Below, in pieces: positions 14,893-21,285 of a DNA stretch of 49,372 bases. The stretch's first letter is position 1. Every line of letters begins with the position of its first letter. The translations under genes and the position numbers were made by a program. The notes beneath the pieces are model-generated. The model did not search any database. It was given only the letters and a program-made list of their open reading frames with translations, and was not told the origin of the DNA. Source of the DNA: Acidobacteriota bacterium (GTDB taxonomy: Bacteria; Acidobacteriota; Aminicenantia; Aminicenantales; Aminicenantaceae); assembly GCA_030669585.1 (NCBI GenBank), contig DAOVDI010000006.1, forward strand, positions 1 through 49,372, read 5' to 3'.

Positions 14893-15534
14893 ATGTGTAA
14901 AAATACAGATCAAAGAAATCAATACTATCAAATAGTTACCAGGACCTTTCTCAACAGGCGGGGCGCGCCATTTTTTTTGTCCTCCAGGGAGATCGACATG
15001 ATCAGGTCCTGGGAGAGCCGGGGAGTTCCACTGCGGGTTGTCTTAGAGGGGATTAAAAATTTTTTTGAAAAACCCGTATCCGGTCCCGGAAGAAAGAAGA
15101 AGGCAGCCTCACTTGTTCTATGTGATTCTTTTGTCCAGAAGGCTTTTCTCATGTCCAGAACGCGGAAAATCGGCCGTGAACAAAAGATCATAAGCAGAGA
15201 TGATAAAAAATCAGCAACGATGGATCTTGTTCGGTATTTTTTACAATCACTTCCAGAGGAAATGAGTTTTTTACAGGGAGATTTTCATTTTGCACTGCAG
15301 ATCTTAGAGAAAAAGTATCCGGATGAAGAGAAGCTTGAAAAATTGGACCGGACAGTTGATGAAAAATTGATCAACAATGCGTCTGAAAGCCTTGTTAAAA
15401 GGATCAGGAGTGAGGTTCTTTCTGAGTACTTAAATAGCGGGAAGGAGGAGATCAATAGAATCATTGAGATCAAACTGTCCAGGTTTATAAGAGAAAGATT
15501 CCAAATACCGCATTTGTCTCTTTTTTATTATTGA
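14893..15534 (+). CDS. Conserved-looking hypothetical protein (213 aa)
   Basis: Complete ORF between coaX and rnr on the same strand; segment LSSREIDMIRSWESRGVPLRVVLEGI; no family recognised. Confidence 0.7.
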   Translation: MCKNTDQRNQYYQIVTRTFLNRRGAPFFLSSREIDMIRSWESRGVPLRVVLEGIKNFFEKPVSGPGRKKKAASLVLCDSFVQKAFLMSRTRKIGREQKIISRDDKKSATMDLVRYFLQSLPEEMSFLQGDFHFALQILEKKYPDEEKLEKLDRTVDEKLINNASESLVKRIRSEVLSEYLNSGKEEINRIIEIKLSRFIRERFQIPHLSLFYY

Positions 15535-15541
15535 TCATTAT

Positions 15542-17581
15542 ATGAGTCGTCCCATTATTGAGCTGCTTTTAAAACACCGGAATGGTCTGAGTCAGACTAG
15601 AATTGCCCGGGAACTCAGATTATTGCCTGCAGACAGCAAACGTCTGAAAGATAGACTGGTCCGGCTGGAGAATCGGGGCGTTATCATGAAACTGCGAAAA
15701 AAATATTTTGCGGTTCCCAGTTCAAAGTTTGTCCGGGGCGCCTATTCTCCATCCCGCAGAGGGTATGGTTTTATTGTTCCACAGGATGAGTTTCTTGAGG
15801 ACATCTTTATTCCATCCCGCTATTCTGGAGGTGCGCTCCGTGGCGATATTGTTGAAGTCTTTGTAAAAAGAGGTCGAAAAGGCAGGTCTGAAGGAAAAGT
15901 CACAAAAATTCTTAAGAAAAAAAGGAGTTTCCTGCTGGGAATATATCATAAAAAGAACCAGAGGGAAGATTTCACGCCTCTCGAACCCGATTTTCAGGAA
16001 GAAATTCTGCTGCCTTGTGAACAAAAAATTCGTCCGGATTCGGGGATGGTTGTAGCCATCAGCCGGGATTCCCATCACATTGAAAAGGTTTATGGATTTC
16101 CTGAAGATCCCGGAGTGGATACTAACGTCATCATTGATAAATATGGGCTGAGATCGGATTTTTCTTCCCATGCACAAAAGGAAGCTGAGAACATTCCTAT
16201 GTCTTTTCCCGAACATGAAATAAAAGACAGGGTTGACTACAGAGATTGGACGACTGTGACCATTGACGGCCTGGATGCTAAAGATTTTGATGATGCGGTC
16301 AGTATAAAAAAAACTGGTGATGGCCATTACTGTCTGGGTGTTCATATTGCTGATGTGTCCTATTATGTTCAGCCAAATACAGACATTGATCAGGAAGCTT
16401 TTTTGAGAGGGACGAGTGTTTATTTTCCTGATTCGGTCCTTCCGATGATCCCAGAAAAATTGTCTAATGTCATTTGCAGCCTTAGGCCAGGAGAGGAAAA
16501 GCTTACAGTATCTGTGCTTATGGAATTCGGCCAGGAGGGCGATCTTATCAAGTCGGATATTAATCTCTCTGTGATAAAAACGAAGGAGAGGCTGACATAT
16601 GATACGGTTTTCAGGATCTTAGAGGGGGAAGAAGAAAAGATCAAGCGCCACTCATCTCTTGTGCCTGATCTAAGGCTTATGGCTGAGCTGGCCTCTTTGC
16701 TGGGCGAGGCGAGAAGAAAAAATGGAAGTCTGGATTTTAACCTGGATGAACCTGAATTGGTTTATGAAAAGGAAACATTGGTGAGGATCGTTCCATCTGA
16801 ACATAATGAGGCACATCGGATCATAGAGGAATTTATGGTTGCGGCCAATGTGGCTGTTGCTGAATTCCTGAGCAGCGAGGATCGTCCTATGATATTTCGG
16901 GTCCATCCTCAGCCTGTTCGGGAAAAGATAGCAGGGCTGAAGAAAAAACTCTCTTTTTTCAATCTTACACTTCCCAACCCGGAAAGATTGACATCCCTGG
17001 ATCTGCAGCAGATTCTGCAGAACATAGATGGGAAGGCCTTTGATAAATATATTATTAAGCAGATTTTAAGAAGCCTGGAACTTGCGGTTTATTCTGATCA
17101 AAACAGGGGGCATTATGGCCTTGCCAAACTTAAGTATACGCATTTTACATCCCCGATCAGACGGTATCCGGATCTGATCGTTCACCGGATCTTAAAAAGA
17201 GCCTGCAATGAAGAAAAAGAGGATGATGTTCCGTTGGGCACAGTGGCAAAACACTGCAGTGAGCAGGAAAGAAAAGCTGAAGAAGCGGAAAGAGATCTTT
17301 TAGATTGGAGAATACATCGATATTTGAGAACAAAATTGGGGGAAACGCTAAAAGGGGTTGTTGTCGAGTTTTTGAGGTCTGGCCTGATCATCCAACTCGA
17401 GGATTATTTTGTGGAAGGCTTTGTCTCCTTTCTTGATCTGGGAGGAGATTATTTTTATAAAAAATCCGAAAGTGTTCTTGTTGGAAAAAGAACAGGGAAA
17501 AAGTTTTTTCTGGGGGAAAGCGTAGATGTTCTGCTGGCCTCGGTCGACACGGTTAAACGAAGGATCGGTCTTTCATTTTAA
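15542..17581 (+). CDS. rnr: Ribonuclease R
   Basis: RGYGFIVPQDEFLEDIFIPSRYSGGALRGDIVEV, TIDGLDAKDFDDAVSIKK, HIADVSYYV, YTHFTSPIRRYPDLIVHRIL, C-terminal S1. Confidence 0.96.
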   Translation: MSRPIIELLLKHRNGLSQTRIARELRLLPADSKRLKDRLVRLENRGVIMKLRKKYFAVPSSKFVRGAYSPSRRGYGFIVPQDEFLEDIFIPSRYSGGALRGDIVEVFVKRGRKGRSEGKVTKILKKKRSFLLGIYHKKNQREDFTPLEPDFQEEILLPCEQKIRPDSGMVVAISRDSHHIEKVYGFPEDPGVDTNVIIDKYGLRSDFSSHAQKEAENIPMSFPEHEIKDRVDYRDWTTVTIDGLDAKDFDDAVSIKKTGDGHYCLGVHIADVSYYVQPNTDIDQEAFLRGTSVYFPDSVLPMIPEKLSNVICSLRPGEEKLTVSVLMEFGQEGDLIKSDINLSVIKTKERLTYDTVFRILEGEEEKIKRHSSLVPDLRLMAELASLLGEARRKNGSLDFNLDEPELVYEKETLVRIVPSEHNEAHRIIEEFMVAANVAVAEFLSSEDRPMIFRVHPQPVREKIAGLKKKLSFFNLTLPNPERLTSLDLQQILQNIDGKAFDKYIIKQILRSLELAVYSDQNRGHYGLAKLKYTHFTSPIRRYPDLIVHRILKRACNEEKEDDVPLGTVAKHCSEQERKAEEAERDLLDWRIHRYLRTKLGETLKGVVVEFLRSGLIIQLEDYFVEGFVSFLDLGGDYFYKKSESVLVGKRTGKKFFLGESVDVLLASVDTVKRRIGLSF

Positions 17582-17584
17582 CCG

Positions 17585-17905
17585 GGCTAACCTGAATGAT
17601 TCATGAAATTCGACGACACGTTGAAAAAAAGGGTTCAAGGATTCAAGTGAAAGAATAAGAGGCCAATGGCCAATGCAAAAGAGGCCCAAAGACGGCTTCG
17701 CCCAAAGCTATTTTAATTACTTTTCTTGCATTAACCGTTTCTTGCTTTTCTCGCAGGCGAGTTTGCGAGCCAAACACAACGAACTCAAAGAACCCAATAA
17801 ACTCAACAAACTCTTCTTGACTTCGACGACTTCTATGGACTTCTATAGACTGTTTTTCTTTGACTCGACCCGTGAATAATCCAGGGAACCTGCTTTATTC
17901 ATAAA
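17585..17905. repeat. Mosaic intergenic repeat cluster, copy B
   Basis: ATTCATGAAATTCGACGACACGTTGAAAAAAAGGGTTCAAGGATTCAAGTGAAAGAATAAGAGGCC matches copies A (reverse complement) and C; also the TCGACCCGTGAATAATCCAGG and ACTCAACAAACTC modules shared with copy A. Confidence 0.8.
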
Positions 17906-17971
17906 AACGATTCTTTTGGATTCGACTGAAATATGCTATTCTAAAAATCTTGATAAGAGAGGAAACGGACA

Positions 17972-19060
17972 TTGAAAGCACCAGCATTTGATGCAGTTAT
18001 AGATTATTCTGCCGGGAAATCCGCGGCAAAAACCATCCTGTCTGTTAAAAACGAAAAGTATCCGGTCAAGATGGAGTATTATTCTTATCAACCGGATAAA
18101 GAAACCGGCCGTTTTTATGTTCACTTCAAATTGTCGAAATCAGTTGATCTCAAATGGAATGACCCTTTTTTTATTTTAAGATCAGACAAGGGAGATCCCT
18201 TGGGCGAAGGGAGGATCCTCTACCCCCATCTGGAGAAAATAACTCCAAGGAAAGAGAAAAAAAGAGTGGGTTTTCTTTTGGGCCTTTTAGAGGGAAACAG
18301 GGAAGTCATTATATCCCTGACCAAAAAAGCGGGGGTCCATGGTATTTCAGGAGAAGAGATCCTTGAATTGATTTCCCTCTCAACAGAGAACCTGTCCGGT
18401 ATCAGTCAGGAATTGGAATCTTCAGGAATAATCCGCATCCTTTCATTTTCCCCTCTGTGCCTCCTGTCACAGGAGAATTTTGATATTCTTTGCGAAAAAA
18501 TACAGACTTTTCTTTCGAAGTATCATGAAAAGAACCCCGGTGAATCCGGGGTGCCGCGGAAAAAAATTCAAAAAAGGTTCGATCTTCATCCAAGGGTTCT
18601 GGCTTTGGCGTTGACAAGTCTTGCCCGCAGTCAAAAGATAAGAGATACAGGAGGGATCGTCGCCCTTTCCAATTTTAAACAGATACTTACATCCAATGAG
18701 GAAGAGATGCTTGTCAAATTGGAGAAACTATATTTGGAAGGAGGGTTTCAGTCCGAATCTCTTGAAAGTCTTCGGCGAAAGTTCAATATTCCTACCGTTC
18801 AAATGGACAAATTGATATCTCTCCTTGTTGCCCGAAAAAAAATCATACAGTCGGAAGAGGGATATCTCCTTCATGAATCCTGGCTGGAAGATGTTATCCA
18901 GATGATTCGGTCTTTTCCTAAAGAGGAATTAACAGTTGCTGATTTTAAGAAAATGACCGGTCTTTCCCGGAAATATGCAATTCCCCTATTGGAGTTAATG
19001 GACCAGAAGAATGTAACAAAGCGTAAAGGGGCTGTGCGGGAGATTTTGGCCAAAGATTAA
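17972..19060 (+). CDS. SelB-like C-terminal region protein (domain III remnant + winged helices) without the elongation-factor GTPase
   Basis: WNDPFFILRSDKGDPLGEGRILYPH resembles the end of SelB domain III; YHEKNPGESGVPRKKIQKRF and the C-terminal LTVADFKKMTGLSRKYAIPLLELMDQKNVTKRKGAVREIL match SelB winged-helix hallmarks. TTG start with AGAGAGG-type SD; no G1-G5 motifs. Confidence 0.8.
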   Translation: MKAPAFDAVIDYSAGKSAAKTILSVKNEKYPVKMEYYSYQPDKETGRFYVHFKLSKSVDLKWNDPFFILRSDKGDPLGEGRILYPHLEKITPRKEKKRVGFLLGLLEGNREVIISLTKKAGVHGISGEEILELISLSTENLSGISQELESSGIIRILSFSPLCLLSQENFDILCEKIQTFLSKYHEKNPGESGVPRKKIQKRFDLHPRVLALALTSLARSQKIRDTGGIVALSNFKQILTSNEEEMLVKLEKLYLEGGFQSESLESLRRKFNIPTVQMDKLISLLVARKKIIQSEEGYLLHESWLEDVIQMIRSFPKEELTVADFKKMTGLSRKYAIPLLELMDQKNVTKRKGAVREILAKD

Positions 19061-19101: not shown

Positions 19102-21285
19102 TTATCTTTTTCTTCTTCTTTTGGTTGCTTTTTTCTCTGCTTGTTCCTTTTTGGATTTGGTTAAGGCGGTTTTGAGTTTTGCTGCAAACATTCCGGTTTT
19201 AGGCTCTTCCTTCTGGACAAAGGCTTTATAGTCTGCTTTCTTTTCTTCGGATTTTGTCTCTGTAAATTCTTTCTTATCCACGGTCTTTATTGCGAAGAGG
19301 GCTTCCATCTCGGACTCTTCCAGTTTGATCTGTTCTTCTCTGATCTTCTTAACGCCCTTCCTTCGTTTTGGACCTCGTTCGCTCTCCAGCTTGACCTTGC
19401 GTCCTTTTTTCTTGCCCTCTTTTGGCTTTTTGGGTTTTATGATTTCCAGGGCAGGCGCTTTAATTTTTTCTTTCTCTTTTACAATCTCTGGGGCAGCCGC
19501 AGATATTTCTTCCGCCTTGACAGCGATTTTTCTTATAACGGCTTTTTTCTCGGCAGAAGGAGCAGCAGCTTCAACGATCTGCAGCTTTCCTTCTTCCGCT
19601 TCGGTTCCAGGAAAATCACCCTCTATGGTGCCGATTTCAGGCAGCCTGCTTTTTGGACTCAGGGTTTTTTTCTTTTTTTCTTTTTCGTCGAAAGGCGTTT
19701 TAAGGCCTTCATCAGGAATAATATCCTCCTCTTCGGCAGGAGCCGTTTCCTGATAGATATAAACCCCTTTCTTTTTTTCGGAAGGCATGAATTCGGAGGA
19801 ATTACGAAATATATATTCGACATCTTCATAAAAGGTTCGTTTAAGCAAATCTACAAGATGAAAGGCTCGTAGAGAATGGAGGAACAGCTCGTTCCCTTCG
19901 TAACCGAAATTTTTCATCACAAGAAGAAGCAGCTCTTTTAAGTCCAATTTTTTTCGCTGCTTGTAGAATGTGAAAAGCTGTTTCAGAGTTTCCTTTTCAA
20001 GAAAGATGATTTTGTTCGTGGAACAGTATGAAAAATCTGTCTCATCGTGAACTTTAAATTCATCTTTTACGGGATCATATGTGACTTTTGGCACTTCGAG
20101 CTTCTTCTTGATCGTCTTTAATGAAAAGAAAAATTTGGATGGGCCTGTTCTTTTTAGCGTCAGACTTGCCCCTTGGGGAACATTATTGCTTTCATAGAAT
20201 TCTTTAAGTCCGATAAAAGCCAGGGATGTCGGATAATAATAAACAGTATATTCTTTTTTCGAATCAGAATTCTTGAATATATATTCTCGAATATGGGACA
20301 ATTCTCTGTTCATGTTTTTCGGAACAACCACTCCCCCTGACAGGATCTCTCTCCATGAAAGATAAAGCTTAAGTGGAAAACCTTCATAGGGGGATGTTTC
20401 TGGTTTAATTCCATCTTCAAATGAGGGCACTTTTGCTTTTTTTGCATTGAGTGGCAGGTCTTTTATAAAAGAATCAATGAGTTCCTTTAAGTGCCATTTC
20501 CCACGGTCTTCAGGAGAGACAAGAATGAATCTTTTTTTCTGCTTACTCAAAGCATGGTTCTGACTGATCCAGTAAATCTCATAAAGGTCCGAATCAGGGC
20601 TGATCCCAAAAGCTTGAGATATTATCTCGGACGAGGAGCAGGATTTTTTTGTTTCACTTAATTTAGTCTGGAGGGAATTCATGATCTCATCAGAGATTAT
20701 TAATCGATTTTTTTTCAATTGCCAGAATTCATTCCAGTTGAAGAAGTCCTTTGATCTTGTGAGTTCATGGACCAGGTTTTTTTCCAGTGACTTCAGGTCT
20801 TTTTCCGGCATGGGGAGTTCATGAAGTCTCGGGTCATCTTCTTTTTCAAGGACTTTTGCGTTTACACATTGATTGTCTTGATTTGAAGGCAGAAGAACCT
20901 GGGTCTTAGTTTTTTTCATATATTCTATGTGTTTTCTAAACGTTCCTCCCCCGGAATAATCAACCTCTAGCATTTCATATTGAAAAGCTTCGTATTTAAT
21001 TATATTGACGACTTTTAGAACAACAGCTCCATGAAAGGGCTCAACTCCTTTACTGCTAATCAAAAGGGGCTCATCATAGGGCTTATATATGAGATCTCCG
21101 ATCTCATAGCGACAGCGGGAATCATAAATTTTAACTTCCTGATTCATCTGGCTGGAATTCTTTTCAAAGGCCAGTCTTGTTGCTAATTCCTGATGTGAGA
21201 CCGGTGTTTTGTTTTTTCCAAAGATTCCCTTAATAAATTGAAGGTCGTCTTTTGTGATTGTTGTATTTTCGTTCTCTTTTTCCAT
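19102..21285 (-). CDS. Large uncharacterised protein with Lys/Glu/Ala-rich C-terminal region and basic tail
   Basis: Single 727-codon ORF; globular N-terminal ~520 aa (GDLIYKPYDEPLLISSKG..FHGAVVLKVVN), low-complexity charged C-terminus ending TKSKKEQAEKKATKRRRKR. No family recognised. Confidence 0.75.
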   Translation of the reverse strand: MEKENENTTITKDDLQFIKGIFGKNKTPVSHQELATRLAFEKNSSQMNQEVKIYDSRCRYEIGDLIYKPYDEPLLISSKGVEPFHGAVVLKVVNIIKYEAFQYEMLEVDYSGGGTFRKHIEYMKKTKTQVLLPSNQDNQCVNAKVLEKEDDPRLHELPMPEKDLKSLEKNLVHELTRSKDFFNWNEFWQLKKNRLIISDEIMNSLQTKLSETKKSCSSSEIISQAFGISPDSDLYEIYWISQNHALSKQKKRFILVSPEDRGKWHLKELIDSFIKDLPLNAKKAKVPSFEDGIKPETSPYEGFPLKLYLSWREILSGGVVVPKNMNRELSHIREYIFKNSDSKKEYTVYYYPTSLAFIGLKEFYESNNVPQGASLTLKRTGPSKFFFSLKTIKKKLEVPKVTYDPVKDEFKVHDETDFSYCSTNKIIFLEKETLKQLFTFYKQRKKLDLKELLLLVMKNFGYEGNELFLHSLRAFHLVDLLKRTFYEDVEYIFRNSSEFMPSEKKKGVYIYQETAPAEEEDIIPDEGLKTPFDEKEKKKKTLSPKSRLPEIGTIEGDFPGTEAEEGKLQIVEAAAPSAEKKAVIRKIAVKAEEISAAAPEIVKEKEKIKAPALEIIKPKKPKEGKKKGRKVKLESERGPKRRKGVKKIREEQIKLEESEMEALFAIKTVDKKEFTETKSEEKKADYKAFVQKEEPKTGMFAAKLKTALTKSKKEQAEKKATKRRRKR

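Follow-up and report, generated by a model that had tools for sequence, protein, structure and literature searches.

We found that a standalone protein derived from the translation factor SelB, hereafter SelBC, is encoded throughout the class Aminicenantia in genomes with and without selA, and that its sequence conservation is focused on the fourth winged helix (WH4), the one that binds the SECIS element in SelB. The reading towards which we lean, with a little better than even confidence, is that SelBC derives from SelB, binds hairpin RNA and has been repurposed for a task outside selenocysteine decoding, acting in trans on structured RNAs. The window analyzed, a stretch of 49,372 nucleotides, belongs as contig 117 to an 87.75%-complete assembly (2.48 Mb) of a member of the Aminicenantaceae. 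Here, the SelBC gene spans positions 17,972 to 19,060 of the forward strand and codes for 362 aa; it starts with TTG, and the purine-rich AGAGGA lies ~10 nt before this codon. Both the ORF and its C-terminal motif are as an earlier sequence-only reading described them.

SelBC contains the Pfam domains SelB-wing_2 (43.5 bits) and SelB-wing_3 (59.3 bits), found in 36/43 and 43/43 SelBC members, respectively, and no Pfam match to a GTPase domain occurs anywhere in the ORF. The NCBIfam selB model (TIGR00475, an equivalog) is matched at positions 323-575 of 581 only, and the score of 38.1 bits falls below the curated cut-off of 242.25 bits, in agreement with the earlier claim that the GTPase part is lacking. 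The best solved relative is the SelB of M. thermoacetica (1lva; phmmer E = 1e-18), a likeness far beyond chance.

An AlphaFold2 model built from an alignment of 55 sequences (mean pLDDT 87.7, pTM 0.73) begins with a beta-barrel and continues with four winged helices, and Foldseek fits it to 1lva (E = 1.7e-18) and, over the entire chain, to the full-length SelBs 5lzb and 4zu9. The barrel (residues 1-86, positions 17,972-18,229, strands E2-E84 of the model) matches domain III of EF-Tu and of SelB, so that the ORF does not start where SelB domain III ends, as had been proposed, but includes that domain. It is followed by WH1 (residues 92-166, 18,245-18,469), delimited by the model and the alignment with 1lva; WH2 (residues 167-236, 18,470-18,679), seen in the model and as SelB-wing_2; WH3 (residues 241-301, 18,692-18,874); and WH4 (residues 302-359, 18,875-19,048), covered by SelB-wing_3 and corresponding to the part of SelB that holds the SECIS-binding helix. 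The WH3-WH4 pair matches 1wsu, its SelB counterpart solved with SECIS, with rmsd 1.7-1.8 Å and TM (target) of 0.88-0.90, and the SelB winged helices recognized in the sequence-only reading are thus borne out by structure comparison. Given the domain III barrel and the whole-chain fit to 5lzb, what SelBC lacks is the G domain, with its P-loop, DxxG and NKxD motifs, together with domain II, and the model portrays a SelB without these two parts that has kept domain III.

This architecture varies within the class. Many members of family f2, and genus g4 of family f1, lack domain III; these proteins (L071, L073, L074, L080-L082) are ~255-280 aa long and consist of winged helices only. In family f8 (L141:8002-9414, L143:177-1580, L144), ORFs of 470-497 aa carry ~120-200 extra N-terminal residues that do not resemble the order's SelB domain III.

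In genomes that are mostly incomplete metagenome assemblies, orthologues of SelBC are present in 58/60 relatives and, in a class-wide sample, in 139/143 genomes and all 65 high-quality ones, a few weaker class matches possibly being full SelB. In the rest of the phylum, most of the listed matches are SelBs of full length (600-800 aa); the shorter ones that we inspected as candidate standalone tails proved to be fragments at contig edges (L146-L148) or a full SelB with a frameshift (L145). Plasmid records contain SelB-like partial matches only, and the annotated ones are all selB. About 20 relatives carry, in addition to SelBC, a separate complete SelB of ~640-670 aa, and the full SelBs of relatives that were fetched whole have a P-loop. 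In a tree of 59 proteins, the 34 standalone proteins and the 25 full SelBs fall on opposite sides of a branch with 100/99 support, and all full SelBs from within the class group together at 100/100. The members from the diverged family f9 lie on a long branch, and their orthology to SelBC is probable.

SelBC evolves under purifying selection, dN/dS being 0.11-0.38 in the 11 close pairs for which it could be computed. Moreover, no full-length SelB occupies the SelBC locus in any of ~44 syntenic relatives, and rnr or pgi lies directly upstream with no remnant of a GTPase between. That SelBC is a decaying pseudogene or an assembly artefact of a full-length selB, as the absence of the G and II domains and the non-ATG start might suggest, has a probability close to nil in the face of these data and of its class-wide occurrence as a standalone ORF. 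The related suggestion of a SelB in decay after loss of selenocysteine is likewise opposed by this distribution and selection regime, and by the fact that conservation within the protein is highest in the RNA-binding helix.

SelBC is not tied to selenocysteine. The gene selA is absent from its own genome (87.75% complete) and found above the cut-off in 23/60 relatives; among 29 high-quality genomes of the order, all of which carry SelBC, 14 have selA and 15 do not. None of 21 class and order genomes tested separately has selA above the cut-off, including all 14 sampled from other families of the class, several of which are 98-100% complete. The co-occurrence with selA that characterizes SelB is therefore not a property of SelBC. 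Concerning a possible GTPase partner, the other hits to the SelB model in the own genome are IF-2, LepA, TypA, three EF-Gs and two 40-aa fragments at contig ends, with no separate SelB GTPase ORF, an absence that is strong, if not absolute, at 87.75% completeness.

These observations bear on the proposal that SelBC still serves selenocysteine decoding, either as the SECIS-binding half of a split SelB or as a competitor that modulates SelB. The SECIS-binding domain is retained and a full SelB coexists in ~20 relatives; however, SelBC is universal in selA-less genomes and its own genome lacks a GTPase half. A split SelB, put forward in the sequence-only reading, is also at odds with the fact that the other hits are ordinary GTPases and that the SelBs of those ~20 relatives are complete. 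Finally, the WH4 of SelBC shares 0.45 identity with that of other acidobacterial SelBs and 0.28 with that of the full SelBs of its own class, as if SelBC had kept the ancestral form of WH4 while the SelB of the class changed. We therefore regard this proposal as very improbable, and selenocysteine decoding as a general function of SelBC is contradicted. The class full SelBs (L084-L097) have ATAILEY in place of IPLLEL in their diverged WH4 and a His for R356, a divergence that suggests a changed SECIS specificity.

Mean pairwise identity among SelBC proteins is 0.27 in domain III, 0.39 in WH1, 0.36 in WH2, 0.44 in WH3 and 0.65 in WH4, and WH4 identity is also 0.65 in the SelBCs of selA-less genomes. 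Among the regions compared, full SelBs are best conserved in domain III (0.66 in the class and 0.56 in other acidobacteria), and WH4 reaches 0.57 and 0.52, respectively. The order of conservation is thus reversed with respect to SelB, domain III being the most variable part of SelBC and WH4 the most constant. Across the order and other families of the class, R333 and K334 are present in 59/59 SelBCs, and R351 and R356 in 56/59. These four residues sit in the recognition helix and wing of WH4, the elements that bind SECIS in SelB, and the Arg333-Lys334 pair presumably contacts RNA as in SelB-SECIS structures.

This profile argues against two further readings. Winged helices commonly bind DNA, and some SelBC members weakly match MarR, GntR, Rpc34 or HTH models, so that SelBC could be a DNA-binding transcription factor made from SelB winged helices; we consider this improbable, as its most conserved residues are those of the RNA-binding helix and wing of WH4 that it has in common with true SelBs, and its best matches are all SelB. 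Quite improbable, too, would be a translation factor without GTPase activity that makes direct contact with the ribosome or tRNA: domain III and the four winged helices are arranged as in the ribosome-bound SelB 5lzb, yet domain III shows little conservation and several lineages lack it.

In the window, SelBC is preceded by rnr, coding for RNase R (15,542-17,581, forward strand; NCBIfam TIGR02063, 656.7 bits), which is its immediate upstream neighbour in nearly all loci of the order. The arrangement conserved there is coaX-ORF213-rnr-SelBC, followed by a convergent gene for a 727-aa protein, carbamate kinase, a P-loop protein and thrS. ORF213 (14,893-15,534, forward strand), which lies between coaX and rnr in most of these loci, yields an all-helical AlphaFold2 model (pLDDT 84.8, pTM 0.52) and could be assigned neither to a Pfam or NCBIfam family nor, at E <= 0.001, to a fold in the PDB. 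Many relatives have rnr and SelBC overlapping or nearly touching, the rnr stop and SelBC start overlapping by exactly 4 nt in 17/42 loci. The 390-nt gap between the two genes in the window (17,582-17,971), whose size had been given correctly, is an inserted spacer. Its description as repeat-rich holds for dispersed repeats, which match 85 places in the genome, and not for internal ones, of which the spacer has none. These non-coding pieces (window 17,585-17,960 and ~40 other contigs) are combined in different orders, most of the 85 matches having 69-97% identity.

Such synteny would fit a protein that is translated together with rnr and works with RNase R as its adaptor or partner, bringing structured RNA to the exonuclease. 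However, four genomes of family f9 (G141, G194, G185 and G327), where the neighbours of SelBC differ from those of the rnr and pgi loci, keep SelBC without any RNase R match, and in G008 (L040, 91% complete) rnr is gone from the locus, SelBC directly follows ORF213, and there is a weak RNB hit only. Moreover, four other families of the class have pgi immediately before SelBC, overlapping it in f8, and in three of the four rnr precedes pgi; the adjacency to rnr in the order could have followed loss of pgi from the locus. Since SelBC is retained in these genomes, RNase R is a frequent neighbour and not an obligatory partner, nor does SelBC show the strict co-occurrence expected of an RNase R accessory factor; we hold the adaptor reading to be unlikely. 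In some bacteria rnr is followed by smpB, which the own genome did not show; a replacement of SmpB by SelBC was considered and rejected, as 54/60 relatives have smpB elsewhere.

Concerning the RNA that SelBC may recognize, sliding-window folding around the starts of coaX, ORF213, rnr and SelBC gave a mean z near 0 and no conserved hairpin, which leaves an autoregulatory hairpin without support and indicates that the target is probably encoded elsewhere. A weak folding dip follows the SelBC stop and is probably a terminator. Rfam identified a single tRNA in the window, and PADLOC gave no match to defence systems.

In the reading that we favour, that of a repurposed RNA-binding protein, a SelB paralogue or remnant would have shed its G domain and domain II no later than the last common ancestor of the class, and would since have been inherited vertically as a core gene. 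SelBC may still bind an RNA stem-loop as SelB binds SECIS, using WH4 with assistance from WH1-3. With neither GTP nor tRNA, it would be unable to decode, so that its targets are most likely one or a few structured RNAs on which it acts in trans. It could, for instance, regulate the translation or stability of mRNAs that carry hairpins, or serve structured RNA as a chaperone or adaptor. Domain III, released from tRNA binding, would be free to drift and has been lost in some lineages. A repurposed RNA-binding regulator was among the options of the sequence-only reading; the class-wide and selA-independent distribution and the conserved WH4 support its general direction, the regulatory role being putative. 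More tentatively, SelBC might be a class-wide, essential-like regulator of SelB origin that recognizes SECIS-like hairpins in RNAs with no link to selenocysteine, the WH4 of the full SelBs in the class having meanwhile changed; we regard this scenario as possible rather than probable.

Bacterial SelB (TIGR00475; 1lva, 1wsu, 2uwm, 2ply, 2pjp, 4zu9, 5lzb) has domain III, WH1-4 and the SECIS patch of WH4 in common with SelBC, which differs by the absence of the G domain and domain II, by a conservation focused in WH4 and not in domain III, and by its presence without selA. Isolated WH2-4 or WH3-4 fragments of SelB (1wsu, 2uwm) have the same fold, and their structures with bound SECIS RNA, solved in the absence of the GTPase, show that such a fragment can bind RNA alone; those are, however, laboratory constructs, whereas SelBC is a natural and vertically inherited gene. 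E. coli SelB reportedly targets an element resembling SECIS within the selAB leader. This provides a precedent for SelB winged helices controlling translation through a hairpin outside a selenoprotein coding region, although it involves full-length SelB with Sec-tRNA, and no SECIS-like leader was found in the SelBC operon.

The open-access papers searched, which leave out most subscription journals, contain no description of a GTPase-less SelB family, and what is new here would be a known set of domains in a standalone form and context. In SelBC, a translation factor appears to have been naturally reduced to its mRNA-recognition half and retained, and the protein may offer a defined system for asking which hairpins SelB-type winged helices read outside recoding. 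SelB winged helices serve as a marker of selenium metabolism (for example in PMC8586653), one that misleads in a class where they are universal and many genomes lack selA.

The 727-aa protein convergent with SelBC (19,102-21,285, reverse strand) has no Pfam or NCBIfam match; its gene is kept throughout the order and in families f10 and f12, and its C-terminal tail is rich in Lys and Glu.
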